A stretch of DNA of 39,298 bases, taken from positions 1-39,298 of the IMG/VR virus record IMGVR_UViG_3300022926_001241; one strand, 5' to 3'. The position numbers and the translations under genes are program-made. Of this stretch, positions 21,882 through 39,298 are shown piece after piece; position 1 is the stretch's first letter; each line of letters begins with the position of its first letter. This DNA comes from a virus. Under the pieces are notes generated by a model, which saw only the letters and a program-made list of their open reading frames with translations, was not told the DNA's origin and did not search any database.

Positions 21882-21910
21882 AAAAGCACCTAAAATGGTG
21901 CTTTTATTTT
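21882..21910 (+). terminator. Intrinsic terminator of the virion module
   Basis: Nine-base-pair stem AAAAGCACC / GGTGCTTTT (21882-21890 with 21897-21905) with loop TAAAAT, followed by ATTTT. It lies 38 bp after the stop of the last virion gene. It directly abuts the -10 of the promoter at 21853-21881, so a transcript starting there would lack most of the left arm and should not terminate. Confidence 0.8.
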
Positions 21911-21939: not shown

Positions 21940-22254
21940 ATGTCGACTCCAGAACAAATAGTAGATCAAATTAAGGTAGCCACAGACTACCAAAAGAATA
22001 AAAAACAACTTAAAGAAAAAATCTTAACGGATCTTCATGTGACCTATAATGGTGGCTTATTTTTAATAACCACAGATTTAATTAGTTTTCTAGCAACATG
22101 GACTAATGAAGAACTATTCTTAGAAGATGTTTATAACAATCCTATTAAAGTTAAAAGAGAAGAGCTATTAACCAAAGCCAAAGAGTGCTATCAAGCAGTT
22201 ATGAATGAGTGGCATATCGAACATGAAAAACTCAAACGTGTCAGAAAAATCTAA
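21940..22254 (+). CDS. Small conserved-looking phage protein, unknown function
   Basis: 104 residues, first gene after the sigma70 promoter, with AAAGAGA about 12 bp before the ATG. The protein is charged, with a helical N-terminus (about 1-35), a central hydrophobic segment (GGLFLITTDLISFLATW, about 39-55, too polar around it to be a clear membrane helix) and a Lys/Glu-rich helical C-terminus. I recognise no domain. Its end overlaps the start of the next gene, so the two are probably translationally coupled. Small proteins of this kind occur between the fibre and accessory genes of marine myophages. Confidence 0.6.
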   Translation: MSTPEQIVDQIKVATDYQKNKKQLKEKILTDLHVTYNGGLFLITTDLISFLATWTNEELFLEDVYNNPIKVKREELLTKAKECYQAVMNEWHIEHEKLKRVRKI

Positions 22255-23005
22255 AGGCGTATTAATATTTGCTAAAAACACAGAAACAATAGATTACGTT
22301 GCTATTGCCCGTCGTGCTGAACAATTAATTAATCATTACCTAAATTTACCAGTAACTATAGTGGAACCTACTGTAGAATCTACTACTAATGTTAGATACA
22401 ATATTGATTCTAACAAATTTGAACAATGGAACAACAGTGGTAGATATCAAGCATATGAGTTATCACCATATGATCAAACAATATTGTTAGATTCAGACTA
22501 TCTAGTAATGGATGATAATTTATTAAAAATACTTGAAGTTACAGATGATTATAAAATTGCTGGCAGTAATGACTATATCAATCAGCCAACGTCTAACAGT
22601 ATTGGAAAATACAGTTTAGAAAGTTTATGGGCAACTGTTATTGTTTTTAATAAAACACCAAAGAGCAAAATGTTATTTGATCTCGTTAAGCGTATAGAAA
22701 AATATTATGCATACTATTCTAAACTATATAACTTTCCTCGCGGTAACTATAGAAATGATTATGCTTTCACTATTGCTGACAATATGTTAAATGGATATAT
22801 ACAAGACAGCAGTAACTATATTCCTTGGGCTATTAAAACTGTTAACCAACAGGTTAATAATATAGTTCTACGAGATAATCAATTGATAATTAAAACAAAA
22901 GATCAAGGCTATGTAATTCCAAAACAAAATCTACATATAATCAGTAAAGAGTTTTTATTGAGCGACCAGTGTGAGCAATTAATCAAGGAAGCCACTAATG
23001 CGTGA
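22223..23005 (+). CDS. GT-A-like putative glycosyltransferase
   Basis: About 260 residues. Candidate starts are ATG 22205, ATG 22223 (used here) and GTG 22238; all overlap the preceding gene and none has a strong ribosome site. The fold cue is an N-terminal beta-alpha start (GVLIFAKNTETIDYVAIARR, about 12-31) and, at about 80-98, LSPYDQTILLDSDYLVMDD. This contains a D90-S-D92 motif, the usual metal/nucleotide-sugar site of GT-A glycosyltransferases. No signal or membrane segment is seen. It is paralogous to the next gene (GFLTFAQNTTDVDY aligns with its N-terminus). Donor and acceptor are unknown; the clustering with further sugar-type genes supports glycan synthesis. Confidence 0.6.
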   Translation: MKNSNVSEKSKGVLIFAKNTETIDYVAIARRAEQLINHYLNLPVTIVEPTVESTTNVRYNIDSNKFEQWNNSGRYQAYELSPYDQTILLDSDYLVMDDNLLKILEVTDDYKIAGSNDYINQPTSNSIGKYSLESLWATVIVFNKTPKSKMLFDLVKRIEKYYAYYSKLYNFPRGNYRNDYAFTIADNMLNGYIQDSSNYIPWAIKTVNQQVNNIVLRDNQLIIKTKDQGYVIPKQNLHIISKEFLLSDQCEQLIKEATNA

Positions 23006-23804
23006 ATTTAAAAGTCAATTTGGGTTTTTAACCTTTGCTCAGAATACTACAGATGTTGATTATCTAAATTTAGCCTACGAACAGGCAAAAAATATTAAAC
23101 AAACACAGAAGTCAAATGAGTATGCTGTCGTAGTAGACTCATCTACAGCAAAGTTAGTTACAGAAGAACATAGGCAAGTATTTGATCATGTTATAGAATT
23201 AACTATTGATTATGCTAATAATGAAGATTGGAAATTAAGTAATGAATGGCAAGCATTTTGGCTTACACCATTTAAAGAAACAATTAAACTAGAAAGTGAT
23301 CTATTGTTTACTGGTGATATCAGTCATTGGTTACCTGCTTTAAGATTAAAAGAAATCTGCCTAAGTTACCATTGCCGTGATCATCACAACAACATAGTTG
23401 AAGATAGTGCTTATAGAAATTTATTTAAGATTAATGATTTACCAGATGTGTATAATGGAATGATGTATTTTAGATTTAGTCAAACTGCTACAGACTTTTT
23501 TAAGACTGCCCGAGACATTTACCAAAACTGGGATCAAGTTAAACAACAACTAAAAAATTACGATAAACGACCAACCACTGATGTAGTATATGCTATAACT
23601 GCTAAAATTATTGGAGAAGAAAATTGTATAATACCAACTTTAGATTTTTTCAATTTTGTTCATATGAAACCACAAATACAAGGATGGAATGAGGATCAAC
23701 CGTGGCGGGATCATGTATTAGTAGAACATGATAATAATATGATACGTATCAATAATTTAAATCAATATCAACCAGTACACTATTATGACAAAACCTTTAT
23801 CTGA
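22998..23804 (+). CDS. GT-A-like protein, paralogue of the preceding gene
   Basis: 268 residues, starting 8 bp inside the previous gene. GFLTFAQNTTDVDYLNLAYE (about 9-28) and the WQAFWLTPFKETIKLESDLL segment (about 84-103) align with the equivalent parts of the upstream paralogue. The first Asp of the DxD-type site is replaced, giving E99-S-D101. The substitution may keep metal binding or mark an altered or lost activity. A further segment NGMMYFRFSQTATDFF (about 154-169) is where related families hold acceptor-side residues. Cytosolic, with no targeting signal. Role inferred as glycosyltransferase or a non-catalytic partner. Confidence 0.55.
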   Translation: MREFKSQFGFLTFAQNTTDVDYLNLAYEQAKNIKQTQKSNEYAVVVDSSTAKLVTEEHRQVFDHVIELTIDYANNEDWKLSNEWQAFWLTPFKETIKLESDLLFTGDISHWLPALRLKEICLSYHCRDHHNNIVEDSAYRNLFKINDLPDVYNGMMYFRFSQTATDFFKTARDIYQNWDQVKQQLKNYDKRPTTDVVYAITAKIIGEENCIIPTLDFFNFVHMKPQIQGWNEDQPWRDHVLVEHDNNMIRINNLNQYQPVHYYDKTFI

Positions 23805-24159
23805 AACAGACATATCCTTATGTAAAGCCTGGGAAATGGTTAAACCAATCAATGTGGTTGAAGAATATCGTGCTTACTACAATGAACAGGGCAAAGTACA
23901 GTTCCTAGCCGCTAATACATTTCCTGAAGGAGACAACTGGATTAACATAACCAGAGAGTTTTATGTTGCTCAGAAATTTAATTTCTCGTGGGTCATTGAC
24001 GGTAAATTAGTTGAAAAGTTACCAACAAATAAACATTATTTTAGTTTGACTCAAGGTATAAAAGATGTTAAAATAGTAAAGAATCATGCTGGAATAGTCA
24101 TTGATGACAATGAAGAATATCCAGATGTGGATTACTATGGAATTGAAAAACATATCTAG
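23785..24159 (+). CDS. Hypothetical protein between glycosyltransferase-like genes
   Basis: 124 residues, starting 20 bp inside the upstream gene and overlapping the downstream one. The sequence is mixed alpha/beta and acidic towards the end (DDNEEYPDVDYYG). No cysteine cluster, nucleotide-binding or membrane motif can be seen, and I do not recognise the family. Its position between putative glycosyltransferases, with overlapping ends, suggests co-translation and perhaps a partner role in the same pathway; that is inference from context only. Confidence 0.5.
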   Translation: MTKPLSETDISLCKAWEMVKPINVVEEYRAYYNEQGKVQFLAANTFPEGDNWINITREFYVAQKFNFSWVIDGKLVEKLPTNKHYFSLTQGIKDVKIVKNHAGIVIDDNEEYPDVDYYGIEKHI

Positions 24160-24964
24160 AATAATGTGTGTTGGTCCTAGTAGGATCAATGAAACTATGG
24201 TTACTTTAAGTTTTGACAGTAACCTAATCCCACATATAGACAAGACATATATTTTTAGTCCTTATTCACAAGAAACATTTGATAATCTATTTGAGCAATT
24301 TAGTATAGACTCTAGTAAGTTTACAATTTTAGATGATCAATATTTTGAACAGTATTATAATTTAACATTCTGGAGAGATAAAAATTGGTTTAAGCAACAG
24401 GCATTTAAGTTATGTGCGTTAGATCATTTTGATAGTGATGTATTTTTAATACAAGATTCAGATATTGTTTTGCTTGAACCATTTGAATACATTAAAAACG
24501 ATAAACTTAACTTTAAAGCAGAAGATGTATGGAACCCATTTCAGGAAATTTATGCTCAATGGGTAGAAAAAATAATTGGCATGAATAGAAAAGAAAATGT
24601 TAGTTTAGTCAATGAACTTATGCCTTATTTTAAAAGTGATTGGGTCGAACTTAAACAGCACATAGAAGATAAGCATCAAACAGATTTTTTGAGTGCTATT
24701 GCTAATTTAAAAACCTTTCATGAGGATCAATGGTTTAGTGAGTACGAACTATTGGGTATATATAAAACACATTTAGACAACAACTGGTTTTGTACTAAAT
24801 GGCAAAGTCAACCTCCAATCGATAGTTGGGAAGACTTTTATAATGTTGATTGGAAACAACACCATAGTATTAAGTTTCATACTAAGCCATTGAAATTTAT
24901 GACAGTACAAGAAGCATTAGATATAACAAAACATATTAAAGAAAACTATGTCAGAAATAATTGA
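24137..24964 (+). CDS. DUF6492-like putative glycosyltransferase
   Basis: About 275 residues. The frame extends up to 24101, but starts at ATG 24137 (used) or ATG 24164, just after the upstream stop, are more plausible. The central segment CALDHFDSDVFLIQDSDIVL followed by LEPF (about 93-116) has a D107-S-D109 motif at the end of a beta strand. The downstream LKTFHEDQWFSEYELLGIY segment is typical of acceptor-side loops in DUF6492-type and other GT-A-like proteins. Residues near the C-terminus (SIKFHTKPLKFM) may be another conserved patch. Cytosolic, with no targeting signal. The donor sugar and acceptor cannot be read from sequence. It overlaps the next gene by 17 bp. Confidence 0.55.
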   Translation: MELKNISRIMCVGPSRINETMVTLSFDSNLIPHIDKTYIFSPYSQETFDNLFEQFSIDSSKFTILDDQYFEQYYNLTFWRDKNWFKQQAFKLCALDHFDSDVFLIQDSDIVLLEPFEYIKNDKLNFKAEDVWNPFQEIYAQWVEKIIGMNRKENVSLVNELMPYFKSDWVELKQHIEDKHQTDFLSAIANLKTFHEDQWFSEYELLGIYKTHLDNNWFCTKWQSQPPIDSWEDFYNVDWKQHHSIKFHTKPLKFMTVQEALDITKHIKENYVRNN

Positions 24965-25841
24965 TATCGCAGATTTAGATTGTGTTTATCTTAGTTATGA
25001 TGAACCACAAAAAGAAGAGTTTTGGATTAAGATTCAAAACATGGTACCTTGGGCTGTTCGTGTAGACGGAGTTAAAGGATCAGATGCCGCACATAAAGCC
25101 GCGGCTGATGCCAGTACTACAGATAGATTTATTCTAATAGATGGCGACAATTTACCTGATCCAAACTTTTTTAATCTACAGTTAGAGTTAGATAATGACA
25201 ATAAAGACAGTGTGTTCCGTTGGAGGGCTCGGAATCATATTAACGGTTTAATGTATGGCAATGGTGGACTTAGTTCTTGGACCAAAGAATTCATATTTAA
25301 TATGAAGACGCATGAGAACAGTGATGGCGACGATGAAACTAATGTAGAGTTTTGTTTTGATCCTTTATATTGGCCAATGAATGATTGCTATTCAACAACA
25401 TATCCCAACCAAACTCCTTTCCAAGCATGGCGAGCAGGATTTAGAGAAGGTGTTAAGATGTGTCTGGATCGTGGTACTAAACCTACAGTAGAAGAGTTTA
25501 AAGAAAAAGCACACGGACGTAATTTAGATCATTTAACGATTTGGCATAACGTAGGCCGTGATGTTGAGAATGGTATATGGGCCATGGCTGGTGCTAGACA
25601 AGGCACAGTAATGACTATGCTAAGTAACTGGGATCATCGAGAAGTACAATGGTTTGATAACTTAGCAAATCTATGGAGTGAGTTACAATCTGACGATGTA
25701 GAAACAATAGCACGTGACAATGGTAAAGAACTTAGTAGGTTGGATCTAGCAGTAGTAGAACTAACAGCAGAACAAAGTAAATTTTTTAAGCACCATTACA
25801 AAAGTCAATTTACCAATACTGGTATTATGGACAGAGAATAA
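24948..25841 (+). CDS. GT-A-like marine-phage protein (putative glycosyltransferase)
   Basis: 297 residues. The N-terminal half reads like a family-2-type sugar transferase: DCVYLSYDEP (about 11-20), RVDGVKGSDAAHKAAADAS (about 38-56) and RFILIDGDNLPDP with a D65-G-D67 motif. HINGLMYGNGGLSSWTKEFI (about 96-115) follows. Similar proteins are common in marine myophages. The same blocks reappear, altered, in the last gene of the window (VKGRVAAYQAAAK; NPINGLEYGHMAMIAYN), so the two are paralogues. The C-terminal part (about 170-297) is helical and less recognisable. It closes the first half of the island; 51 bp separate it from the radical-SAM cluster. Confidence 0.6.
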   Translation: MSEIIDIADLDCVYLSYDEPQKEEFWIKIQNMVPWAVRVDGVKGSDAAHKAAADASTTDRFILIDGDNLPDPNFFNLQLELDNDNKDSVFRWRARNHINGLMYGNGGLSSWTKEFIFNMKTHENSDGDDETNVEFCFDPLYWPMNDCYSTTYPNQTPFQAWRAGFREGVKMCLDRGTKPTVEEFKEKAHGRNLDHLTIWHNVGRDVENGIWAMAGARQGTVMTMLSNWDHREVQWFDNLANLWSELQSDDVETIARDNGKELSRLDLAVVELTAEQSKFFKHHYKSQFTNTGIMDRE

Positions 25842-25885
25842 TATATCTAAGGCTATATATAGGCTTAAATACTAATAGAAATATC

Positions 25886-25893
25886 GATAAATA
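25886..25893 (+). promoter_or_regulatory. Late promoter box GATAAATA before the radical-SAM cluster
   Basis: The third exact GATAAATA, again between genes. It touches the first possible ATG of the radical-SAM operon (25893). T4-type late initiation would start at about 25899, leaving the ATG at 25905 nearly leaderless. It suggests that the five radical-SAM genes are transcribed late, with virion genes. Confidence 0.5.
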
Positions 25894-27305
25894 TGGAAAA
25901 ATCAATGACTAAGAGTACATTTCTTTCTGACGCTGAAAGAATTAAAGAAAAATTAGATTCTGTTAGCCCTAGTTTATGTTTAGCTAAATGGCAACAGGTA
26001 AGTTTACATTTACCAACAGGATTAAATAACTCTTGTTATCATCCTCCTTTACACGAAATAGATGCTAAGCCTTTAGAGTTCCATCCTAGTCGTTTACACA
26101 ATACAGAACATAAAAAACAACAACGTAAAAAAATGTTAGAAGGTGCTCGTCCTAAAGAGTGTAACTACTGCTGGCACATGGAAGATTTAGGAGAAATGTC
26201 AGACAGACATTATCGTTCTGGTGAGCCCTGGGCCGCTGAGCATTTTGATAACATTGTTAATAATCCATGGGATCAAGATGTAACACCTAGTTATGTAGAA
26301 GTTAATTTTAGTCATGCTTGTAACCTAGCATGTAGTTATTGTTCACCACAGTTCTCAACTGAATGGGGCAAAGACATAGAACGTTGGGGTGCTTATCCTA
26401 CTTCAACACCACACAACGATCCTGAACATTTTAAAGGAAGACGCAAGCCAATTCCAGTCAGAGAAGAAAATCCCTATGTAGAAGCATTTTGGAAATGGTG
26501 GCCTGAACTATACGGATCACTTAAACATTTTAGAATGACTGGCGGTGAGCCATTAATGGATAAGAATACACATAGGGTATTTGATTATATTTTAGCAAGT
26601 CCTAAAAGTGATTTACATGTAGACGTAACATCAAACTTTTCTGTAGAACCTAAATTATTTGAAGACTATCTAGGCAAAGTAAAACAACTTTGTAAGGGTG
26701 AACGTATTGAACACTTTATGCAGTATGTGAGTATAGACACTGGTAATCCAGACCATGCTCAATATATAAGACATGGTCTTATGCCTCAACGATTTCATAG
26801 TTACCTACATCGGTACCTGGTAGAAGTTCCAGAAAGGAATAGTTTAACATTTATTATTACAATGAATAATTTAAGTTTGTTAGGTCTACAACGGCAATTA
26901 GAAGAAATTTTAGAATTGCGTAGAATGTATAGTTCAACATACCAACGTGTCTGGTTTGATACTCCTGTGTTAAGAACACCAAGTTGGCAGAGTTTACAAA
27001 TACTACCAGCAAGTTATAGTCGTATCTTAGAGAACGTAATTAAATGGATGGAGTTAAACAAATTAGAAGAAGGTAGTGATAAGTTTGACGGATTTAAAGA
27101 TTATGAGATACAAAGACTACGAAGAGATTTCGAATGGATGAAGAAAGGTAAAAAGTTAAGTAAAAAATATTTGTATGAGCAACGAGCTGATTTTTATAGA
27201 TTCTTTAATGAGTATGATAAAAGACGTAAAACAGACTTTCTAGCAACCTTCCCTCAGATGAAAGAGTTCTGGCAAGAGTGTAAGTGGCATGCCGAAAATT
27301 CATAA
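25893..27305 (+). CDS. N-terminal-twitch radical-SAM enzyme 1
   Basis: 470 residues; an in-frame ATG at 25905 with GGA 7 bp upstream is an alternative start. The radical-SAM cluster motif CNLACSYC (C143, C147, C150; CX3CX2C) is followed by RMTGGEPLM, the SAM-binding GGE segment. Before the core is a four-Cys module (C29, C48, C90, C93: SLCLAKW, NSCYHPP, ECNYCW), the layout of the N-terminal 'twitch' radical-SAM family, which probably binds an auxiliary 4Fe-4S cluster. A strand NSLTFIITMNNLSLL (about 314-328) lies in the TIM-barrel half. Such enzymes cut SAM reductively to make a 5'-deoxyadenosyl radical; the substrate is unknown. It is the first of five paralogues and overlaps the next by 17 bp. 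Closest in type to enzyme 2 (single Cys, then H-P). Confidence 0.85.
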   Translation: MEKSMTKSTFLSDAERIKEKLDSVSPSLCLAKWQQVSLHLPTGLNNSCYHPPLHEIDAKPLEFHPSRLHNTEHKKQQRKKMLEGARPKECNYCWHMEDLGEMSDRHYRSGEPWAAEHFDNIVNNPWDQDVTPSYVEVNFSHACNLACSYCSPQFSTEWGKDIERWGAYPTSTPHNDPEHFKGRRKPIPVREENPYVEAFWKWWPELYGSLKHFRMTGGEPLMDKNTHRVFDYILASPKSDLHVDVTSNFSVEPKLFEDYLGKVKQLCKGERIEHFMQYVSIDTGNPDHAQYIRHGLMPQRFHSYLHRYLVEVPERNSLTFIITMNNLSLLGLQRQLEEILELRRMYSSTYQRVWFDTPVLRTPSWQSLQILPASYSRILENVIKWMELNKLEEGSDKFDGFKDYEIQRLRRDFEWMKKGKKLSKKYLYEQRADFYRFFNEYDKRRKTDFLATFPQMKEFWQECKWHAENS

Positions 27306-28635
27306 CGAAACAGATCTAGAATATAAACGCAGAGTAATAGATATCAAGTCTGAATCATTCTGTGGTGCTAAATGGTACAATGCTACCATATGGCTAGGTT
27401 CAGGACAAACTACTAGTTGTCACCATCCTTTACCACACCAGGTAACAGTAGAAGAAGTTAAAGCAAATCCCAAAGCATTACACAATACCTATAGAAAAAA
27501 ACAAGAACGCCAAATGATGAAAGATGGCGAAAGACCAGCAGGTTGTGAATACTGTTGGAAAATTGAAGACATGGGTACTGATAAGATATCAGACCGTGTA
27601 GATAAAACAAGGATATACACAGATGAAGAATTGGATGAAGCATACAATGCCCCTTGGACACAAGATATTGACCTTAGAACTTTGGAAATTGCTTTTGATA
27701 GGACTTGCCAGCTGGCTTGTAGTTATTGCAATCCCGCTTTTAGCAGTGCTTGGGTTCGCGATATTAAGCAACACGGTAGTTATACCAACTTGGTTAGTGA
27801 CGGTCGCAACCACTTTACTCATACTCACGATAGCAGTCAACTTTATACTATTCATCAGCATAATCCTTATGTTGAAGCCTTCTTCAAGTGGTGGGAATCA
27901 GACCTACACAAAACACTTAGAGAACTTAGAATAACAGGTGGTGAGCCATTGATGTCAGGATACACTTGGAAATTATTAGATTGGTTTAAAGAGAACAAAG
28001 GTAAAAGTCAAACACGTCTTGCTATTAATAGTAATCTTGCTATGGAACAAGATAAAATAGATCGTTTACTAGAAGCCGCTGGTGACGTTGAATTAGACTT
28101 ATATACAAGTTGTGAAGCAACATACGATCATGCTGAATATATTAGAGATGGTTTAGATTATCAGCAATGGCTACAGAATGTTGAATATCTATTAGAAAGT
28201 AAAAAGTTACGCGGACTACATGTGATGTGTACAGTCAACAGTTTATGTTTGATCTCACTACCTTACTTGTTAAAACAAATAGTTAAATGGAAAAAACAGT
28301 ACGGACAAGATGCTGTTAACTTCACTCTAAACATTCTACGCTTTCCTAGTTTCCAATCACCTTTAGTATTAGACAAAGAGTTTAGGATAGCTCAGGCCAA
28401 CAGACTAGGAATATTTAAAACAAACTATGGCGAATGGCTACATGAGTTTGAACATAATCATATAGATAGATTAATTGACTATTTACAATTAGTAGATAAA
28501 CCACATTCAGATGCGTTTGAAGAACAGAAACTATTAAGCGATTTTAAAAACTTTTACGAACAATACGATGAACGCAGAAACAAAAACTTTACAGAAACGT
28601 TTCCTGAACTAGAGGAATGGTACAATGGCTTATAA
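27289..28635 (+). CDS. N-terminal-twitch radical-SAM enzyme 2
   Basis: 448 residues, starting 17 bp inside enzyme 1. The core motif CQLACSYC supplies C140, C144 and C147; RITGGEPLM follows. The N-terminal module has C25, C44, C86 and C89 (SFCGAKW, TSCHHPLP, GCEYCW), matching enzyme 1 in spacing and in the single Cys-His-His type, unlike the Cys-Cys type of enzymes 3-5. Similarity along the whole length, including NPYVEAFFKWW before the GGE segment (NPYVEAFWKWW in enzyme 1), makes 1 and 2 a clear duplicate pair. Cytosolic, expected to be oxygen-sensitive and to need a host reductant. The substrate is unknown; two diverged copies could act on successive positions of one substrate or form a heteromer. 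Confidence 0.85.
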   Translation: MPKIHNETDLEYKRRVIDIKSESFCGAKWYNATIWLGSGQTTSCHHPLPHQVTVEEVKANPKALHNTYRKKQERQMMKDGERPAGCEYCWKIEDMGTDKISDRVDKTRIYTDEELDEAYNAPWTQDIDLRTLEIAFDRTCQLACSYCNPAFSSAWVRDIKQHGSYTNLVSDGRNHFTHTHDSSQLYTIHQHNPYVEAFFKWWESDLHKTLRELRITGGEPLMSGYTWKLLDWFKENKGKSQTRLAINSNLAMEQDKIDRLLEAAGDVELDLYTSCEATYDHAEYIRDGLDYQQWLQNVEYLLESKKLRGLHVMCTVNSLCLISLPYLLKQIVKWKKQYGQDAVNFTLNILRFPSFQSPLVLDKEFRIAQANRLGIFKTNYGEWLHEFEHNHIDRLIDYLQLVDKPHSDAFEEQKLLSDFKNFYEQYDERRNKNFTETFPELEEWYNGL

Positions 28636-29899
28636 CTACAATTCATCAGAACCAGTAAAAATAAGTTTAGATCAATTAACTGACCGTGAAAAGTTTTTGT
28701 TAACAGAATCTAAAACGTTTTGTATGTATCCTTGGATACACTTACATAGTTATCCAACAGGTGATGCTTATCCTTGCTGTCATGCCGAAATGCCTGAGAA
28801 ACTAGGTAACTGTCAACAGCAGTCAATGAAAGAAATATGGTCTAATGATAAGACTATTAAGTTACGTGATGACATGCTGAATGAAAGAGAAAATCCTGCG
28901 TGTACTAGATGTTATGAACAGGAGAAGTCAGGTTTCTTTTCGGGACGTAAGTCAGCAAACAAACATCATGGCCATCATATTAAAAAAGGTGTTGACTTAG
29001 ATCCTCCGTTTGAAATGACATATTGGGATATACGTTTTAGTAACTTATGTAACTTATCATGTCGTAGTTGCGGACATATCTTTAGTAGTTCCTGGTATCA
29101 AGATCAAGTTAAACTTGCTGGCGAAGGGTGGGGCAAATCAAATAAGCCTTTGTTTTGGGCAGGCAGGCATGAAACAGATATGATCGAACAGTTAATGGAA
29201 CACCTAGACTATGTAGAGCAAATATATTTTGCAGGTGGTGAACCATTGATGATGGATGAACACTATGTTATTTTAGAAGAATTAGAAAAGCGTAAACGCT
29301 TTGATGTAAGATTAATCTACAATACAAACTTTACTAAAACAAAACTAAAAGATCGTTATGTGTTTGACTATTGGCGTAAGTTTGATTCAGTAGCAGTAGG
29401 TGCTAGTTTAGATGCTATGGGACCACGTGCTGAATATATTAGAGCAGGCACAGACTGGGCAGAGGTAGAAAAGAATAGACAGTTGATGTTAGAACAATGT
29501 CCTAATGTTGACTTTTATATTAGTCCTACATTGAGTATACAAAATGCACTACATTTGCCTGACTTTCATAGAGAGTGGGTAGAACGTGGATTTATTAAAC
29601 CTCAGGACTTAAATGTTAATATCTTGCAAGACCCTGCGTGGTTACGTATTGATATTGCACCTGAACAATATAAAGAAAAGATACGTGCTAAGTATGAACA
29701 ACACTTAGAATGGCTACGACCTTTAGACAAGTTAAATAGAGCAACAGTGGGATTTGAATCTGCACTAAACTTTTTAGAAACAGACAACACTAAGTTACTG
29801 CCTAAGTTTTGGGAACGAATGACAGAGTTAGACAAGATTAGAAACGAAAACATATCAGAAGTAATACCGGAGTTAGATGAAATACGAATCAATAATTAA
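28625..29899 (+). CDS. N-terminal-twitch radical-SAM enzyme 3
   Basis: 424 residues, starting 11 bp inside enzyme 2. Core motif CNLSCRSCG (C142, C146, C149) and YFAGGEPLMM. The N-terminal cluster module has C33, the pair C51-C52 and C93/C96 (TFCMYPW, YPCCHAE, ACTRCYEQE). The FCxxPW and CC signature resembles SPASM/twitch cluster sites but lies before the radical-SAM core, as in the N-twitch family. It belongs with enzymes 4 and 5 rather than 1 and 2. The C-terminus RNENISEVIPELDEI resembles the endings of its neighbours. No transmembrane or RiPP-recognition domain can be seen. The substrate is unknown. It overlaps the next gene by 23 bp. Confidence 0.85.
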   Translation: MAYNYNSSEPVKISLDQLTDREKFLLTESKTFCMYPWIHLHSYPTGDAYPCCHAEMPEKLGNCQQQSMKEIWSNDKTIKLRDDMLNERENPACTRCYEQEKSGFFSGRKSANKHHGHHIKKGVDLDPPFEMTYWDIRFSNLCNLSCRSCGHIFSSSWYQDQVKLAGEGWGKSNKPLFWAGRHETDMIEQLMEHLDYVEQIYFAGGEPLMMDEHYVILEELEKRKRFDVRLIYNTNFTKTKLKDRYVFDYWRKFDSVAVGASLDAMGPRAEYIRAGTDWAEVEKNRQLMLEQCPNVDFYISPTLSIQNALHLPDFHREWVERGFIKPQDLNVNILQDPAWLRIDIAPEQYKEKIRAKYEQHLEWLRPLDKLNRATVGFESALNFLETDNTKLLPKFWERMTELDKIRNENISEVIPELDEIRINN

Positions 29900-31466: not shown

Positions 31467-32763
31467 GAACAGACCTGCTACCTTGTGTATGGCTCCTTGG
31501 ACACATACATATCTAAGTCCACAAACAGAAAGACGTATGTGCTGTGCTAGTCGTGAAGAAGCACAAAACTTTGAACAATACATAGATACCAAAGCCGGAA
31601 CAGGCAAGTACATTCCTATTACCTTAGAAGAACACTGGAATTCAGACCATATGAAGTCAGTGCGTAAGCGTATGATGGCAGGCGAAACCTTGCCAGAGTG
31701 TGACGTGTGTAATAGTAAGTTATTAAACACAGACGTTTACCGTAGTTATTTTGACCACTTGTTTTCCAGTAAATACTATGCAAAGATATGGGAAACCACA
31801 GACGAGGATGGGTTTACAACAATGCAACCTGTGTCGTGGGACTACCGTTTTAGTAACCTTTGTAACTTCAAGTGCCGTACTTGTGGAGATATGTTGTCCA
31901 GTGCTTGGGAATCAGAACAAAGACAACATAATATGATTAACTGGCATAATCCTAAAAACAATTGGATGAAGCCAGAAATCAAAAAGGATATCGAAAAGTT
32001 TCAAGACACGCAAATTGAGCAAGAGTTTGCTCAAGCAGTAGAAGAACATAGAGTTGAAGAAGTCTACTGGGTAGGTGGGGAACCTTTAATGTACGAACAA
32101 CACTGGACGTATATGAATCGAATTATCCAACTCGGTGATGGAGCAAATGTATATGCAAGGTACAATACAAACCTCAGTCGTGTGGCTCATCGTGGCATTA
32201 GCCTCTTCAATGATATTTTACCTAATCTACGTGATTGGCAAATCTGTGCGTCAATTGATGGAACAGAAGAGATTGGAGAGTACATTAGAACAGGTCTCAA
32301 ATATAATCAATGGGTTGAAAATTATGATCAAGCAGTTGCGACAGCAAATACGAGCCGCCAAGTTCGTGTCGATTTTACTGCGACATTACCAGGACTCTTC
32401 GAAGTCAAACGAATCCAAGACTTCGCAGAAAGCCGCGGGACGGAAGTCCTCGCAAAAGTAATTTTTAGTTTTACGCCGGACATTATTCTAAGTCCACTAG
32501 CACTTCCTAAAGAATTATTACATCCATGGGTAGACGAAATTGTAAATACTCTACCCAATGGTGCTATGAAAGATGTAATGTTACAACTTAAAAATAGACC
32601 TACGTTTGCTGAACAATGGCCAGATCAATATGAACAAGGTCTACGTAAAGGCAAACAAAGAATATTACAACTAGAACAAATTAGAAACGATAAACTTACA
32701 CTGCGTGATATACTATCAAATAGACAAGCAGTATTAGAATGGTGGGATTCAATTGGAAGTTAA
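31453..32763 (+). CDS. N-terminal-twitch radical-SAM enzyme 5
   Basis: 436 residues, overlapping enzyme 4 by 14 bp. N-terminal module C12, C30-C31 and C83/C86 (TLCMAPW, RMCCASRE, ECDVCN). Core CNFKCRTCG (C137, C141, C144) and VGGEPLM. Its type is the CC form of enzymes 3 and 4. DNA from about 32120 to 32480 stands out by codon choice: six CTC leucine codons and several GCG, CGC and GTC codons in a gene otherwise using TTA/CTA, GCT/GCA and CGT/AGA. This points to a recombined segment from another phage lineage. The frame is intact across the patch, so the enzyme is probably functional. The next gene starts 11 bp inside this one. Confidence 0.85.
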   Translation: MNEPKNRPATLCMAPWTHTYLSPQTERRMCCASREEAQNFEQYIDTKAGTGKYIPITLEEHWNSDHMKSVRKRMMAGETLPECDVCNSKLLNTDVYRSYFDHLFSSKYYAKIWETTDEDGFTTMQPVSWDYRFSNLCNFKCRTCGDMLSSAWESEQRQHNMINWHNPKNNWMKPEIKKDIEKFQDTQIEQEFAQAVEEHRVEEVYWVGGEPLMYEQHWTYMNRIIQLGDGANVYARYNTNLSRVAHRGISLFNDILPNLRDWQICASIDGTEEIGEYIRTGLKYNQWVENYDQAVATANTSRQVRVDFTATLPGLFEVKRIQDFAESRGTEVLAKVIFSFTPDIILSPLALPKELLHPWVDEIVNTLPNGAMKDVMLQLKNRPTFAEQWPDQYEQGLRKGKQRILQLEQIRNDKLTLRDILSNRQAVLEWWDSIGS

Positions 32764-33895
32764 AGTTACTCTACGCAATCCGTTAAACAAGCAAGATACC
32801 TTAGACTATTACATAGTTCCTAATGATACACAGTTAGCACAGGACTGGGTATCTAGTCTAGAAGAAATAGTCAAAGACAATCTACATTTAGAAAAAAATT
32901 ATTGCTTTCTAGGATTTCCAAAAACACAAAGAACACTTGATTTGTTGTGTGATGAACTTAATAAACATGTTATGACAATTAACATGTTTAACTACTCAGG
33001 TCTTTGGCAAAGTAAGGGGCTAGAACCTTACATAATTTTCACACATTACACTCCAGATCAGGTAAGATGGCCTGCAGAGTACGGTGTTAAGAACGGATAC
33101 GTATACGAGGAATCAAGAGTAAACACAAGGGTCGGCCTCTTTATTAAAGATGAAGTAATGAATGAGTTACATAACCACTTTGAAGTACTTCAAGGCACAG
33201 TAGAACACCCAAGTCCGTATTATGATTTAGCTAACGACGAAACAAAGTATGCAATAAGACAGTTAAACAATTTATGTCACGAGATAGAAAGTTTAATATT
33301 AAGTCAGAGACAGGATTATCTAGAACCTGAGTGGGTTAGACCTAGTCAAATTACAACATTCTTTAACGTAAATAGAAAGCATTTAACAGACGAACACAGA
33401 CAAGGCTTTTTAACAAATGGTTATGATCGTAAGTTTGGGCATGTCTACATGCACTGGACGCAAATAGGTAAAACACTGTTTGAAGTATTTCGTGATGAAG
33501 GTGCGCCAGATCTAGATGAAGCAACCTGTGAAGCAATAACACACCTACAATATTATTCGGGAGAGTTTGACGTAGAGTGGGCAAAGGATGTTGTAAGAAA
33601 TAATAATTGTCCTTGGCATGATGAAGAACAATTACTATTTGAAAACTGGTTATTAAAAAACAGCTTTGACCCTCGAGATACAAAATTAAGTTTAGGGTAT
33701 TTGCATCTAGGACAGATTGATTTAGAACGTAGTTTCGGTACACAAGATCAACAGGCTATTTGGAACAGGCTAAGTAATTATCTAGACATATATAAAATTG
33801 AAGTTAACGGATACACAGCAACATATGACTATTGTTGGAGTGACGAAGATTTTAAACAACAACAAATGAAGAGATTAGGTTATGAAGTGGATTAA
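32753..33895 (+). CDS. Unknown 380-residue protein after the radical-SAM genes
   Basis: The frame starts at a TTG (32753) that overlaps the previous stop, with GGTGGGA just upstream as a possible ribosome site; no ATG lies near. The sequence is soluble and acidic, rich in Trp, Tyr and His. Segments that look conserved are ESLILSQRQDYLEPEW (about 180-195), VYMHWTQIGKTLFEVFRDEG (about 232-251) and LGYLHLGQIDLERSFG (about 321-336). No cysteine cluster, DxD or nucleotide-binding loop is visible. I do not recognise the family. Its place inside the same overlapping operon makes a partner, substrate carrier or second-step enzyme for the radical-SAM proteins possible; that is inference from position only. 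Confidence 0.6.
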   Translation: MEVKVTLRNPLNKQDTLDYYIVPNDTQLAQDWVSSLEEIVKDNLHLEKNYCFLGFPKTQRTLDLLCDELNKHVMTINMFNYSGLWQSKGLEPYIIFTHYTPDQVRWPAEYGVKNGYVYEESRVNTRVGLFIKDEVMNELHNHFEVLQGTVEHPSPYYDLANDETKYAIRQLNNLCHEIESLILSQRQDYLEPEWVRPSQITTFFNVNRKHLTDEHRQGFLTNGYDRKFGHVYMHWTQIGKTLFEVFRDEGAPDLDEATCEAITHLQYYSGEFDVEWAKDVVRNNNCPWHDEEQLLFENWLLKNSFDPRDTKLSLGYLHLGQIDLERSFGTQDQQAIWNRLSNYLDIYKIEVNGYTATYDYCWSDEDFKQQQMKRLGYEVD

Positions 33896-33983
33896 AAATT
33901 TAATAAACAAGATTAAGTTAGAATTACGTTATCGTAAAAAACTGAAAGAGCTAAGGAAGAAGGATCCTTTCATCTACAAATGA
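33882..33983 (+). CDS. 33-residue cationic micro-protein
   Basis: A short frame with ATG at 33882, overlapping the end of the previous gene by 14 bp, and a TGA sharing ATGA with the next start (33980). The peptide begins MKWIKNLINKIKLELRYRKK and ends KLKELRKKDPFIYK. It is a very basic amphipathic helix with a fixed-looking DPFIY tail. The neat overlaps at both ends argue that it is a real gene. Short proteins with a similar Lys/Arg helix and DPFIYK-like ending are, as far as I recall, seen in marine phages and bacteria. The function is unknown. It has no Cys, so a classic sactipeptide role is unlikely, though other radical-SAM chemistry cannot be excluded. Confidence 0.55.
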   Translation: MKWIKNLINKIKLELRYRKKLKELRKKDPFIYK

Positions 33984-34162
33984 GTGAAGAAATCAAAAGT
34001 CCATGTATAGGTGTTTGCAGTCAAAATCCAGTAACTAAACAGTGCTTTGGTTGCCAACGTACACCAGAAGAAATAGAAAAGTGGTGGGATTATACAGAGG
34101 AAGAAAAACTTGCATTATTAGAAGAATTAGAAAAGAGATCAGATGAGTTATTTGGGGATTAG
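33980..34162 (+). CDS. DUF1289 Fe-S-type small protein
   Basis: 60 residues. It has the DUF1289 signature: C9-x3-C13 (SPCIGVC), C22-x2-C25 (QCFGCQRT) and the EEIEKWWDYTEEEKLALLEE tail. Four cysteines can bind a metal or Fe-S centre. DUF1289 proteins are small bacterial proteins of unclear function. Here the gene shares ATGA with the micro-ORF before it and overlaps the carbamoyltransferase by 20 bp, so it is expressed with the radical-SAM and carbamoyltransferase genes. A role in cluster supply or electron transfer to the radical-SAM enzymes is possible but only inferred. Confidence 0.75.
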   Translation: MSEEIKSPCIGVCSQNPVTKQCFGCQRTPEEIEKWWDYTEEEKLALLEELEKRSDELFGD

Positions 34163-35627
34163 TTCAGGCTTTCATGATGCTGGTATAACTGTTATTGATG
34201 ATAACGGCGATATTGTATTAGCAAGTCACAGTGAACGTTATTCAAAAAAGAAAAATGATCACTTGTTAAGTGGAGAGCAATTCCGTGAATTTGACTACGG
34301 ACAACTAAAAAAGATTAGTTACTATGAACGTCCTTGGTTAAAACAACTACGTCAAATAAGAACAGGACAAGGTATAGAGTGGGATAAACTCACTGTACGA
34401 CAAATACTCGAACAGCAAATTCCTAAAAACATTTTTAATAAAATAAAATCAGTTCCTGTGCAAACAAACAATCATCATTTATCACATGCGGCCGCTGGTT
34501 TTCAAACTAGCCCTTATAACGATGCTACTGTTGTAGTTATTGATGCTATAGGCGAGTTTGATACTATTAGTATATGGTCAGCAGAATATGATAGTAAAGG
34601 TTATGCCAAATACAAAAAGTTATGGACACAGAAGTATCCTCATTCAATGGGCTTGTTTTATTCAGCGATGACTAAACGTGCAGGACTTAGACCTTTAGAT
34701 GAAGAATATATTTTAATGGGTATGGCCGCTTATAGTTTACCTAAGTTTGATATGATCAATGACTTTGTAGAAGACCGTGCTGAAATTAAATTCAAAGAGA
34801 ACCTGCACCTAGGTTGTGATGACTATGATCCTAAAATGTCTGACTATCAAGTTGCCGCTTCAGCACAAAGCGTACTAGAAACTTTACTACATGAAGTTAT
34901 GGCACGTGCTAGAAAAATAGGACGTAGTAACAATTTAGTTTATATGGGCGGTGTTGCTCTTAACTGTCTAGCCAATGAACACATAGGAGCATACTTTAAA
35001 AATATTTGGATTATGCCTAACCCTGGCGACTGTGGATCTAGTCTAGGAGCCGCGGCTTTGGCTTATGGTCGTAAGGTTAATTGGGTGCATCCTTACCTAG
35101 GCACAAACATCAAGGGCAAGTATCCTGTTAATGCTGTATTAGACGAATTGTTTAATCGTAAGATAGTAGGAGTAGCAAGTGGTCGTGCAGAGTTTGGCCC
35201 AAGAGCTCTAGGCAACAGATCATTACTAGCAGACCCAAGAGGTCCAGAAATAAAAGATCAAGTAAATGAAATTAAACGTAGACAAAAGTTTAGACCTTTT
35301 GCACCTATCATCTTAGAAGAGTTTGTTGATGAGTATTTTGAAATGCCTACAGGATTTCCAACAAGTCCTTATATGCAGACAGTGGCTCGTTGTAAAAAGC
35401 CAGGAGAGTTTCCTGCTATTATACACAAAGATGGAACCAGTCGTGTACAAACAGTTCCTAAAGATAGTAACTCAGGTGTAAGACAACTGTTAGAAAAATG
35501 GTTTACCTTAACAGGTTGTCCTATGTTACTTAATACAAGTTTGAATATCAGAGGTGAGCCGATGGTTAATGATCGTAGTGATGCTGATCGGTTTGAAAAA
35601 CTCTACGGAGTTAAGGTCTGTAGTTAG
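34143..35627 (+). CDS. NodU/CmcH-family O-carbamoyltransferase
   Basis: 494 residues. Enzymes of this family activate carbamoyl phosphate with ATP to carbamoyl-adenylate, then move the carbamoyl group to a hydroxyl of a sugar or antibiotic. Visible marks are the N-terminal LGISSGFHDAGITVI (H11), NNHHLSHAAAGF with H111, H112 and H115 (metal/nucleotide site of the ASKHA-like domain), EYILMGMAAY (about 189-198), MGGVALNC (268-275) and NPGDCGSSLGAA (293-304). In the C-terminal YrdC-like part come GRAEFGPRALGNRSLLADPR (347-366) and LLNTSLNIRGEPMV (462-475). It is somewhat shorter than typical members, mainly at the C-terminal end, but all motifs are present. The acceptor is probably a glycan made by the neighbouring glycosyltransferases. 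It converges with the next gene, the stops overlapping by 4 bp. Confidence 0.88.
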   Translation: MSYLGISSGFHDAGITVIDDNGDIVLASHSERYSKKKNDHLLSGEQFREFDYGQLKKISYYERPWLKQLRQIRTGQGIEWDKLTVRQILEQQIPKNIFNKIKSVPVQTNNHHLSHAAAGFQTSPYNDATVVVIDAIGEFDTISIWSAEYDSKGYAKYKKLWTQKYPHSMGLFYSAMTKRAGLRPLDEEYILMGMAAYSLPKFDMINDFVEDRAEIKFKENLHLGCDDYDPKMSDYQVAASAQSVLETLLHEVMARARKIGRSNNLVYMGGVALNCLANEHIGAYFKNIWIMPNPGDCGSSLGAAALAYGRKVNWVHPYLGTNIKGKYPVNAVLDELFNRKIVGVASGRAEFGPRALGNRSLLADPRGPEIKDQVNEIKRRQKFRPFAPIILEEFVDEYFEMPTGFPTSPYMQTVARCKKPGEFPAIIHKDGTSRVQTVPKDSNSGVRQLLEKWFTLTGCPMLLNTSLNIRGEPMVNDRSDADRFEKLYGVKVCS

Positions 35628-36790
35628 TTACGGATAGTGTCAATTAACGTACCAAGTCTGTGACTGAGGTCGCTTTCTAATACAGATCTATTGTGTAATA
35701 AAGTTGGTTCAGCCTCAAGATACATATCGTGTAATTTATCTAAAGGCATACGAGCAAGTTCCTCACTCAACTTCATAACAGCCTGAAAGCGTTCGTTAGT
35801 ATCTTCAATCTCATCATAACTTTCGTCCCAGATATGACCAAACGTAGCATAACCTAGTTCACGTAGATGTTTTAAATGTTGATGTTCTGCTACACAGATA
35901 AATGGCTGACAGTGTAGGATAGGTTTAAGAGTTTTTTCAGTAATAAACTGACCTTCACTAGAGTCAACATCAATAAATGTTTCTAGCACAATATTAAAGT
36001 AACTGTCCTCATAAAGTTCTATAGGTGTTACTGCATAGTTGTTTCTTTCATCACTGCTAAGTTCGTCAACAAAGAATGGTCCTGCTTGAATAAAGTCGTT
36101 AACTCTAGGCTGTTGTTCTGCTAACCACTCATTGTATAATGGTAAACCATCATAGTCGTCCTGTTCGCCTAGTTGTTCTTGACAATAACTAAAATAACCG
36201 TTTTTATGTAGCCCTTTTGCCCATAGATTACTCATAAAAACTTTACGCCAGAGCTTGTCAATACGCACAAGAGCAGTAAAATGCTTACTACGACGCTTAA
36301 AATGCGTCTTAGGCACCGTTGTAAAGTCTACAGAACGTCTATACATATACTCTAACTCTGGCCAATAATGTGTATATTTGTAGTCTGTGGCCGCACTGTT
36401 ACCACTAACAACTGCCACATTGTGATAGTCATATTGCTTACACAGTTCGGTGATTCTACGACTTATCATTTTTGGATTGTCTGCTTCGTGATAAAAGAAA
36501 ACTATTTTGAATCCTTTTTTAAATGCTTTAGGATTGATCAATTTAAAATAATCAAAAGTAAAATCAAACCAACCAATGTTCATAGGATACCAAGCACCGT
36601 TGGGTGCATTAGGTGTGTGATAAATGTCTATGTCTATAGAACTTTCTTTAGCATAATAAAAAATTCTAGGATAGTCTAAGTAAGGAGAGGATGTATCCCA
36701 GCCGCCTTCACGATAGTGTTCTCTGGTGATGCCATTTGGTATTGGCCTGCCAGTGCCTTCTTCAAAGTTATCAATTGCTAAAGTAATCAT
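35624..36790 (-). CDS. ITEKT-motif putative glycosyltransferase 1
   Basis: 388 residues on the - strand, second gene of a two-gene unit. The C-terminal block (about 282-340) reads FITEKTLKPILHCQPFI, then LRELGYATFGHIWDESYDEI. A TEK-type segment followed by PFI and DESYD blocks recurs in phage and giant-virus proteins annotated as glycosyltransferases; the TEK motif recalls GT10 fucosyltransferases, so a GT-B-like fold is plausible. The N-terminal half (about 1-230) has alternating beta strands (KIVFFYHEA, VAVVSG) as in a Rossmann-like domain. No targeting sequence. Its first 20 bases overlap the end of the upstream paralogue. The activity is not proven by sequence. Confidence 0.55.
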   Translation of the reverse strand: MITLAIDNFEEGTGRPIPNGITREHYREGGWDTSSPYLDYPRIFYYAKESSIDIDIYHTPNAPNGAWYPMNIGWFDFTFDYFKLINPKAFKKGFKIVFFYHEADNPKMISRRITELCKQYDYHNVAVVSGNSAATDYKYTHYWPELEYMYRRSVDFTTVPKTHFKRRSKHFTALVRIDKLWRKVFMSNLWAKGLHKNGYFSYCQEQLGEQDDYDGLPLYNEWLAEQQPRVNDFIQAGPFFVDELSSDERNNYAVTPIELYEDSYFNIVLETFIDVDSSEGQFITEKTLKPILHCQPFICVAEHQHLKHLRELGYATFGHIWDESYDEIEDTNERFQAVMKLSEELARMPLDKLHDMYLEAEPTLLHNRSVLESDLSHRLGTLIDTIRN

Positions 36791-37871
36791 TGATTTGTCC
36801 TAACATATTTTCAAGCTCTTGCCACAACAGTTTTTCAAAGTTACCTTTGTAAAAATGCTCATAGTTGTATTTTATAATAGGTAAACAGTCTAGCCATAAC
36901 TTATGTTTTTCGGCCGAGGTATAACTGTCTAACTGTTTCATTAGTTTACCAATGGCAGTATACCGCTCAAAGTCATCTTCTATAAAGTCATAACTTTCGT
37001 CCCATATACTGCCAAAAGTCATAAAGCCGTATTGTTTCAAATATGCTAAACTATAAGCAGGTGCTGTTAGTATAAAAGGCATTTGTAGTGCAATAGGTTT
37101 AAATGTTTTTTCAGTAATATGATGTCGTTTCCCTGTAGCCACAGTTTCAGTTACGTGATAAAATAAACTTTCGCAAGATTCTTTTATCTGTGTTAACTTA
37201 TAACTTGACATCTCCTGTGTTTCTTCGTTACGAAATGTTCTTGGCAAGTCAGCTTCTTTTAATACATGTACAATGTCTGGATAGTTTTTTGACATTGATC
37301 CGGCAATATCTAATATATCTTCGCCTTCTACAGGACATACTTGTGGTGCTGATATGTGATTATGCCATAGATCATTCTTAAGCATGTGATATAACATAGC
37401 CACACGATGTTTGCGTTTACCGCCAATAATGCGATTAGGTGATATAAATGTTTTCTTTATAGTACGATCAGCAGGGGGTGTAATATTAAATGTCCTATTA
37501 AATCCTCGAAACCAATCTAATGCGGCCCACCCGTGAAAAAAATAATAAAATTGCTCCCCACCGAGATATTCTTGAGCCCAATTAGCATTTTCACTATCAC
37601 GCTCACTGGTAACCATAGCAAACTTTTTTGTTCCACAATATTCTTTTATTTTACTAAATGTTGATTTGTGTAAGTTGGGCTGGATAGGTTCTTGATCAAA
37701 TAGATACAAATAATTTCCACGGTTCTCGTTTCCGTTAATATATACTACGATACTATCAGGATCACTAGACCCAAACGGATCATGAACTGCTAGTTCAAAA
37801 TTTCTATTTTTACTATTAGAAGCAAAGTATGGAAAAAACACAGTTTGATAAATTTCGTCTATTCTAATCAT
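36771..37871 (-). CDS. ITEKT-motif putative glycosyltransferase 2
   Basis: 366 residues on the - strand and paralogous to the following - strand gene: HITEKTFKPIALQMPFIL (251-268) and YGFMTFGSIWDESYDFIEDD (281-300) align with its C-terminal block. The N-terminal half includes NYLYLFDQEPIQPN (53-66) and KFAMVTSERDSENANW (83-98), consistent with a nucleotide-sugar-binding Rossmann domain. Its ATG (37869-37871) overlaps the ATG of the divergent + gene by two bases, so its promoter must lie inside that gene; no clear promoter or ribosome site was seen. The pair forms the only - strand unit in the window and looks like an inverted cassette inside the glycan island. Confidence 0.55.
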   Translation of the reverse strand: MIRIDEIYQTVFFPYFASNSKNRNFELAVHDPFGSSDPDSIVVYINGNENRGNYLYLFDQEPIQPNLHKSTFSKIKEYCGTKKFAMVTSERDSENANWAQEYLGGEQFYYFFHGWAALDWFRGFNRTFNITPPADRTIKKTFISPNRIIGGKRKHRVAMLYHMLKNDLWHNHISAPQVCPVEGEDILDIAGSMSKNYPDIVHVLKEADLPRTFRNEETQEMSSYKLTQIKESCESLFYHVTETVATGKRHHITEKTFKPIALQMPFILTAPAYSLAYLKQYGFMTFGSIWDESYDFIEDDFERYTAIGKLMKQLDSYTSAEKHKLWLDCLPIIKYNYEHFYKGNFEKLLWQELENMLGQINDYFSN

Positions 37872-39298
37872 GTTTGATGTTTTTTATATTGGTAACAAAC
37901 CAAATATCGTTCCTCATGAACGCGAAGTTTCATCTATTCAACAAGCACAAGAACTAAGTCGTACTCGCTATTGTTGGCTCATCAATACTTATACTGATTA
38001 TTCAACCTGGGACTTTCTTTGGGAACCTGTTCCTTGGGAGTCTAACCAACGTCATGCGTTTCCTAGTCAATGGCAACGTGATTCAGAAACATACCTAATA
38101 CCTAAACAAGATCACACAGACGTAAACTATAGAACAGACATTAAAGTAGAACGTAATTCAGCATCAGCAGACGTTGTAGTTATAGATCATATGGATAATA
38201 ATGTAAATCTTACAACTTCTAGTATAGAATCTAAAGCAAATATTGTAAAATATACAAAATTTGTAGATAATTATTTAGATACGCTGTTAAGAATTGCACG
38301 TACTACAGATTCTGAACACTTATGGATATGTAGCAGTGTCTGCGACTACACAGACTTTGACTTTACCTGGCATCCAGATCCTTGGCAGAGCGAAATGCTA
38401 CATGTATTCCCTAGTGGCGATCAAAAGTTTGGTGATACATTCTATATGCACGTTCCTACATTTAAAGCAAACGCAGACAAGTGTGAACTGTTAGACTGGT
38501 ACAACAATAACTTTACTCAAGACCAAATAGTGCCAAGACATAAACTACCGTTGGTCAAACACTTAGAAGACAGCCACGTTGATGCACTACCAGAAAGTCA
38601 ACAAGAGCCATTGGTAGTATACACTAACGAAAACTTATGGTTTACTCCTGTACCTAATATACCATTATGGCGTAAGAAAACAAGAACAATAACTCCTCTT
38701 GACACTAGAGGGTGCAGTGTTATAGTTCCACGTGATGCTCTAGGTGATATTAAAACACAGTTATGGGACTACGAATATGTTGATCGCAGTTACCAAACAC
38801 AGAGGAAGTCTGATCCATTAGATGTTGTGTTTATAGAAAACGGTGAAGTAAATGCTGAAGAAAACTTCTTACATCTAGAGAGTTGCCTCATGCAAAAACC
38901 TAACAAATTGAAGCGTGTAACGAACGTAAAGGGCCGTGTAGCCGCTTATCAGGCCGCGGCTAAGGTCAGTAGTACCCCGTGGTTTTTTGCTGTGTTTGCG
39001 AAGCTTAAAGTAGACGAATCGTTTGATTGGTCTTGGCAACCAGACTGCTTACAGCAACCAAAACATTATATATTCCATGCCCGTAATCCTATCAATGGAT
39101 TAGAGTATGGACACATGGCCATGATTGCTTACAATAGAAAACTAGTATTAAGCAATCAAGCACCAGGTTTAGACTTTACCTTAGACCAACTACATGAAGT
39201 AGTTCCAATACTATCAGGTGTGGCTAACTATGCTGATGATGAGTTTATGGCTTGGCGTTCGGCATTCCGTGAAGTAATTAAACTTAAACATGCACTTG
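37870..39298 (+). CDS. Large marine-phage GT-A-related protein with internal repeats (3'-partial)
   Basis: The frame begins at ATG 37870 and stays open to the right edge (476 codons), so the gene continues outside the window. It begins MFDVFYIGNKPNIVPHE. Three diverged copies of a Trp-rich unit occur at about 34-78 (RYCWLINTYTDYSTWDFLWE then PVPW), 149-197 (HLWICSSVCDYTDFDFTWHP then DPW) and 369-425 (TPWFFAVFAKLKVDESFDWS then WQPD). After 315 comes a block like the 24948 gene (VKGRVAAYQAAAK, NPINGLEYGHMAMIAYN), but the site equivalent to that gene's D-G-D reads VFAK, so the metal site may be lost. Known family members are widespread in marine phages and often called glycosyltransferases. GATAAATT 15 bp upstream is a possible weak late promoter. 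Confidence 0.65.
   Translation, partial: MFDVFYIGNKPNIVPHEREVSSIQQAQELSRTRYCWLINTYTDYSTWDFLWEPVPWESNQRHAFPSQWQRDSETYLIPKQDHTDVNYRTDIKVERNSASADVVVIDHMDNNVNLTTSSIESKANIVKYTKFVDNYLDTLLRIARTTDSEHLWICSSVCDYTDFDFTWHPDPWQSEMLHVFPSGDQKFGDTFYMHVPTFKANADKCELLDWYNNNFTQDQIVPRHKLPLVKHLEDSHVDALPESQQEPLVVYTNENLWFTPVPNIPLWRKKTRTITPLDTRGCSVIVPRDALGDIKTQLWDYEYVDRSYQTQRKSDPLDVVFIENGEVNAEENFLHLESCLMQKPNKLKRVTNVKGRVAAYQAAAKVSSTPWFFAVFAKLKVDESFDWSWQPDCLQQPKHYIFHARNPINGLEYGHMAMIAYNRKLVLSNQAPGLDFTLDQLHEVVPILSGVANYADDEFMAWRSAFREVIKLKHAL

Follow-up and report, generated by a model that had tools for sequence, protein, structure and literature searches.

In pelagimyophages, glycosyltransferases and cassettes of radical S-adenosylmethionine (SAM) genes are linked to the tail fibers, and the authors read the glycosyltransferases as modifying the O-chain (PMC7029224). 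This host recognition cluster is hypervariable, has no fixed synteny, and is flanked by VrlC and the neck gene gp14 (PMC7029224). In the Vibrio phages K566 and K567 (255 kb), radical-SAM genes of the N_Twi type lie among genes that resemble the glycosyltransferase families GT8 and GT4. Here we describe an island of genes beside the tail fibers in IMGVR_UViG_3300022926_001241, a virus record of 39,298 bases from IMG/VR, which we analyzed at its full length (the window). The record is a fragment, and the island runs beyond its end. We refer to the genes of the island as g1 to g17, except for five radical-SAM enzymes, which we call rS1 to rS5 (Table 1). Our best explanation, which we hold with modest confidence, is that the island is a cytosolic, phage-encoded operon for assembling and tailoring a glycan, with its own promoter of the host sigma-70 type.

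Like the pelagimyophage cluster, the island is variable, adjoins the tail fibers after a giant structural protein (4,400 amino acids here), and combines glycosyltransferase-type genes with radical-SAM genes. It differs in having a fixed core order, five orthologous radical-SAM genes, and a giant protein that matches those of PA5oct, Atu_ph07, and SCTP-2. K566, which is cultured, has N_Twi-type radical-SAM genes at 161548-172827 of OZ196521.1. Two of these score above the cut-off of NF033640 and three score below it, and they are interleaved with a GT4-like gene and two GT8 genes (8.2e-8 and 2.5e-12). A few kb further on come LpxC (1.3e-40) and a gene annotated as PagP. Unlike the island, K566 and K567 gave no detectable g12, g6, or g17, and their radical-SAM proteins are about 23-27% identical to those of the island. 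K566 is a possible laboratory model for such genes. The K566 and pelagimyophage islands favor a sugar product, which we consider somewhat better supported than not, and, weakly, a target in the envelope. Overall, the island seems to be kin to the fiber-linked glycan islands of marine phages, and is set apart by its fixed core of five radical-SAM enzymes.

Profile searches of IMG/VR with g12 and with g6 found over 500 relatives each, and we kept the best 80 of each. Our locus statistics describe these nearest relatives (160 related loci, with some contigs in both sets). The order and strand of the core, which runs from the last fiber gene through g1, g2, g3, g6, and rS1-rS5 to g12 and g17, agree in 154 of the 159 loci that have four or more core genes, and because this order recurs across related viral loci, the gene set is beyond chance. 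In 78/80 loci of the g6 set, no more than 8 kb separates g6 from the last fiber gene upstream of it. The preliminary description of this DNA had centered on an O-carbamoyltransferase. A query with that gene found 19 loci, most with the same arrangement, but it is present in just 37 of the 52 loci that contain both g12 and g17, and in 13 loci g17 directly follows g12. The carbamoyltransferase is an option, not part of the core of the island.

Searching 50,697 phage records with g1, g6, g12, and g17 (tblastn) gave no match. We considered a cellular origin for the module and rejected it, as g12 occurs in only two contigs of metagenome-assembled genomes (MAGs) from a collection of 84,980 species, and both resemble mis-binned phage. 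These contigs were binned as Pacearchaeota and Rickettsiales and look like marine myophages; no radical-SAM core genes adjoin the g12 homologue within the stretch that was read. Among 398 genomes of Pseudomonadota, N_Twi_rSAM scores above its cut-off in 3, one of which is a MAG with phage-like contigs that was used as a center. We also rejected the freshwater moraphages as the clade: these are predicted phages of Bacteroidota (PMC12619734), and we found no link to them.

All five radical-SAM proteins score 289-392 bits on N_Twi_rSAM (NF033640), for which the curated cut-off is 170 bits. Each has a CX3CX2C motif, and all of the long orthologues that we examined keep it intact (74, 116, 130, 119, and 97 sequences for rS1 to rS5, respectively). 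Four additional cysteines in the N-terminal region (C33, C52, C93, and C96 in rS3 numbering) are invariant in 26 aligned members, a pattern to be expected of one auxiliary 4Fe-4S cluster. In a tree of 111 radical-SAM proteins from 24 loci and the window, rS1-rS5 each belong to an old lineage of their own (5 label changes, against a minimum of 4 and a mean of 66.6 after shuffling), so they are not recent duplicates. The simplest reading of the sequences is that the five genes have five different fixed jobs in a multi-step set. In several contigs, rS3 and rS4 are fused in one open frame of about 850 amino acids (L005, L007, and L012; for example, L040:5614-8169), which suggests that these two enzymes act together.

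To our knowledge, the N_Twi_rSAM family has no assigned substrate. The radical-SAM profile matches SkfB (1.3e-4) and, weakly, the twitch domain of BtrN (1.1e-4), a twitch radical-SAM enzyme of sugar metabolism; unlike in BtrN, the twitch domain of the island's proteins is N-terminal. SPASM/Twitch enzymes mostly act on peptides. Together with the match to SkfB and the cyclophilin-like fold of g12 (see below), this raises the alternative that a peptide of the phage or the host is the substrate of the radical-SAM enzymes, which would epimerize or cross-link it, and that the sugar enzymes serve that peptide. A candidate precursor would be g1, the first small gene, but we rejected it as a ribosomally synthesized and post-translationally modified peptide: its conservation does not follow a pattern of leader and variable core, and it has no conserved cysteine. 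Also, the accessory genes are dominated by sugar types. We consider the peptide alternative improbable.

The solved radical-SAM structures closest to these enzymes include BtrN, viperin, and BlsE, and the DegT, carbamoyltransferase, and amidinotransferase-like accessory genes resemble those of aminoglycoside clusters. The operon might then make a diffusible small molecule, similar to an aminoglycoside or a nucleotide, that acts on the host or on competitors. This is very unlikely, as we did not recognize a gene for export or resistance, and the fixed link to the fibers would have no obvious reason.

The AlphaFold2 model of g12 is confident (predicted local distance difference test, or pLDDT, of 91.7). 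We found no significant match to this model with Foldseek, nor to the g12 sequence in the Protein Data Bank (PDB). VIA-align alone matched the model to cyclophilins (Z 9.9, root-mean-square deviation, or rmsd, of 3.4 over 135 residues). The modeled fold appears cyclophilin-like, and a shared fold implies no function. The helical insert holds many invariant residues (H140, E144, C175, H176, E177, and E179). In one contig (L033:13546-15177), g12 is fused to a domain with a GDSH motif (SGNH-like).

The sugar-type genes of the island include at least two that are predicted to encode GT-A enzymes. For a homologue of g17 with 609 amino acids, the AlphaFold2 model (pLDDT 90.2) has a GT-A fold. The best matches from Foldseek were K4 chondroitin polymerase and WrtF, and VIA-align, whose top list consists of GT-A enzymes and related nucleotidyltransferases, matched it to human B4GALNT1 (Z 11.9, rmsd 2.8, 139 residues). 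The C-terminal GT-A domain of g17 is homologous to g6 (HHalign, 99.8%). The IDGDN motif is invariant in g6, and no clear classical DXD motif was seen in g17. The model and this homology support the identity of g17 and g6 as GT-A enzymes. g2 and g3, with motifs of the DSD/ESD type, are glycosyltransferase candidates that probably belong to this class too. The accessory genes of the relatives include a DegT aminotransferase (3.8e-86), an NAD epimerase (4.8e-41), CTP_transf_like (2.2e-16), and an APS-kinase-like gene. Other accessory genes were labeled SGNH-like, amidinotransferase-like, or 2-oxoglutarate-oxygenase-like from motifs by eye, and Pfam gave no support for these labels.

The carbamoyltransferase of the window has both domains of the TobZ/NodU type (Pfam, 1.9e-34 for the N domain and 2.9e-51 for the C domain), has the FHDA motif, and matches phrog_1601 (1.9e-96) and TobZ (4.8e-40). 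In all 51 of the carbamoyltransferases from the clade (51/51), the residues at TobZ positions 421 and 423 are G and R, as in enzymes that act on sugars. The position of Trp408 in TobZ is Val or Ile instead. The predicted activity of an enzyme of this type is carbamoyl transfer to a sugar hydroxyl.

Another phage-borne member of this superfamily carbamoylates 5-hydroxymethylcytosine (5hmC), and it co-occurs with thymidylate synthase (TS) and dCMP deaminase (PMC8670742). In relatives, TS and dCMP deaminase are likewise found close to the island, so the operon could instead hypermodify the phage's DNA, for instance by carbamoylating 5hmC. The island's enzyme is only 24% identical to the proven 5hmC enzyme, however, which has C and T at TobZ positions 421 and 423 instead of G and R. 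The partner TS differs as well. In the relatives, the TS-family genes are downstream of the island, beside dihydrofolate reductase (DHFR), and on the opposite strand in most of those that we mapped. A 5hmC-type partner TS has Asp177, and the linked copies do not: the motif is PFNIASY (Asn177, the type that acts on deoxyuridine monophosphate) in seven mapped relatives and in 8/9 copies of a wider set. No TS-family gene was found in several relatives of 225-340 kb (some of 317–340 kb). One module-bearing record of 302 kb (G418) has a divergent TS-like gene with PFALQQY in place of PFNIASY, 86 kb away (at 140020-140748 of this record), which is possibly a pyrimidine hydroxymethylase. That gene is a point in favor of DNA modification, which we nevertheless consider highly improbable. 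The preliminary description had also judged DNA hypermodification to be less likely, and the residues of the carbamoyltransferases, the TS type, and the large relatives without TS agree with that judgement.

The preliminary description had further supposed that the island is expressed late, with the fibers. We examined 61 distinct gaps between the last fiber gene and g1. An intrinsic terminator is present in 38/61 (0.1 expected from dinucleotide shuffles), and 28/61 have a sigma-70-type promoter that matches at 10 or more of the 12 positions (1.3 expected). The window itself has both. For four other classes of gaps (such as fiber to fiber, giant protein to fiber, and g12 to carbamoyltransferase), the count was none or one. 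We also searched for a motif similar to the late promoters of T4 (TATAAATA, with at most 1 mismatch). It is enriched upstream of the fiber genes (20/37 vs. 6.8 expected, and 27/45 vs. 14.8 expected) but not at g1 (9/61 vs. 12.4 expected). Judging from these signals, the island is a transcription unit of its own under a host-type promoter. With a sigma-70-like promoter instead of a late one, the operon probably switches on before fiber synthesis or apart from it, although the type of promoter does not by itself fix the timing. These results contradict late expression with the fibers.

They also bear on the acceptor. The same pathway might build its glycan on the phage's own fibers or on other proteins of the virion. 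The last fiber-like gene (w07) adjoins g1 in 77/80 loci of the g6 set, the core enzymes all appear to be cytosolic (none of the core proteins has a clear membrane segment, with rS2 borderline), and we recognized no genes for a lipid carrier or a flippase, all of which fit an acceptor in the virion. On the other hand, a terminator and a sigma-70-type promoter split the island from the fibers, the late-like motif is enriched only upstream of the fiber genes, and the related genes in K566 sit near LpxC and PagP. We view a virion acceptor as rather unlikely. Between the host's envelope and the phage's own adhesin, the envelope is slightly more likely to be the target.

If the operon does assemble and tailor a glycan, then g2, g3, g6, and perhaps g17 (GT-A or GT8-like) would assemble a short sugar chain, and rS1-rS5 would each perform one fixed radical step. 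The closest models for these steps are epimerization, deoxygenation, and dehydrogenation, as in aminoglycoside tailoring by enzymes of the BtrN/NeoN type. Accessory genes that vary among phages (carbamoyltransferase, SGNH-like, DegT, epimerase, and nucleotidyltransferase) would add the last decorations. The acceptor would be a glycan of the host's envelope or a cytosolic lipid-linked precursor, and the outcome might be masking of a receptor or a change of serotype. A glycan pathway was also proposed in the preliminary description, and that part stands as the best-supported reading, given the GT-A enzymes, the sugar-type carbamoyltransferase, and the sugar-nucleotide genes of the relatives; its argument from late expression does not.

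Several observations weigh against this explanation. A complete envelope pathway needs a polysaccharide polymerase and a flippase, and neither was recognized in the loci that we read. Proteins of the g2/g3 type have no significant match in Pfam (2/42 members match Mannosyl_trans3, at best with 0.0054). The two ITEKT proteins had been described as putative glycosyltransferases, but when we compared 57 homologues to Pfam and the family's profile to PDB, no relationship to glycosyltransferases was detected. The constant link to the fiber genes could mean that the fiber is the acceptor, and the type of promoter is no proof of timing. The preference of most SPASM/Twitch enzymes for peptides counts against a sugar product as well, and we know of no product or activity for any N_Twi_rSAM enzyme of the island.

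Table 1. Features of the island and of its upstream boundary in the window.
Feature	Position	Strand	Evidence or occurrence
w07, last fiber-like structural gene, upstream boundary	20864..21844	+	78/80 g6-set loci; immediately precedes g1 in 77
Sigma-70-type promoter, TTGACA-17-TAGAAT, 11/12	21853..21881	+	gap after last fiber gene; position enriched in relatives
Intrinsic-terminator hairpin, probable end of fiber operon	21880..21907	+	-14.5 kcal/mol, z -5.65
g1, 104 amino acids, first gene of the island	21940..22254	+	78/80 g6-set loci
g2, GT8-like glycosyltransferase candidate, LLDSDYL motif	22205..23005	+	motif in A4/A7; 80/80 loci
g3, glycosyltransferase candidate, resembles a paralogue of g2, KLESD motif	22998..23804	+	motif
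g4, 124 amino acids	23785..24159	+	
g5, DUF6492, accessory	24101..24964	+	Pfam 4.6e-6, above cut-off
g6, putative GT-A enzyme, IDGDN (DXD-type) motif	24948..25841	+	HHalign 99.8% to GT-A domain of g17
rS1, N_Twi radical-SAM enzyme	25893..27305	+	NF033640 289.9 bits; own lineage
rS2, N_Twi radical-SAM enzyme	27289..28635	+	NF033640 298 bits; own lineage
rS3, N_Twi radical-SAM enzyme	28625..29899	+	NF033640 391.9 bits; own lineage
rS4, N_Twi radical-SAM enzyme, N-terminal extension	29877..31466	+	NF033640 336.1 bits; own lineage
rS5, N_Twi radical-SAM enzyme	31453..32763	+	NF033640 289.2 bits; directly precedes g12 in 76/80 g12-set loci
g12, 380 amino acids, cyclophilin-like barrel and inserted helical domain with invariant His/Glu/Cys	32753..33895	+	predicted structure
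DUF1289 small protein	33980..34162	+	Pfam 2.4e-16
TobZ/NodU-type O-carbamoyltransferase, optional	34143..35627	+	Pfam, phrog_1601, TobZ match
ITEKT protein 1, recurrent accessory family	35624..36790	-	homologues
ITEKT protein 2, same family as ITEKT protein 1	36771..37871	-	homologues
g17, repeat protein, putative GT-A C-terminal domain, cut by end of window	37870..39297	+	model of homologue

All of the genes that were named in the preliminary description are present between 21940 and 39298. g5, which overlaps g4, has no counterpart in nine mapped relatives and is a phage-specific insert. Beyond g17, the relatives have genes for DegT, an epimerase, thymidylate synthase, and DHFR. Upstream of the island, the window encodes a baseplate wedge protein (phrog_10646, 4.7e-218), the giant virion structural protein (phrog_10938), and fiber-like genes. 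A search with 2,000 residues of this giant protein matched jumbo phages, among them PA5oct, Atu_ph07, SCTP-2, and Phosso (about 30% identity), and the same module is present on contigs as long as 354 kb. Because of these matches and the size of the module-bearing contigs, the window probably represents part of the genome of a jumbo myophage.

Tentatively, the island may represent a fixed assembly line of five radical-SAM enzymes, with the cyclophilin-like g12 and the GT-A repeat protein g17, in a clade of giant phages that is mostly uncultured, and its product may be a sugar or glycopeptide whose chemistry is new to viruses and is tied to host recognition. For a virus, a fixed order of five radical-SAM enzymes is unusual. 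The island gives the N_Twi_rSAM family a context that bears on function, and the conserved set specifies which proteins to express. If our explanation is correct, then a common gene module of aquatic giant phages would be an unstudied biosynthetic pathway that is tied to host recognition.

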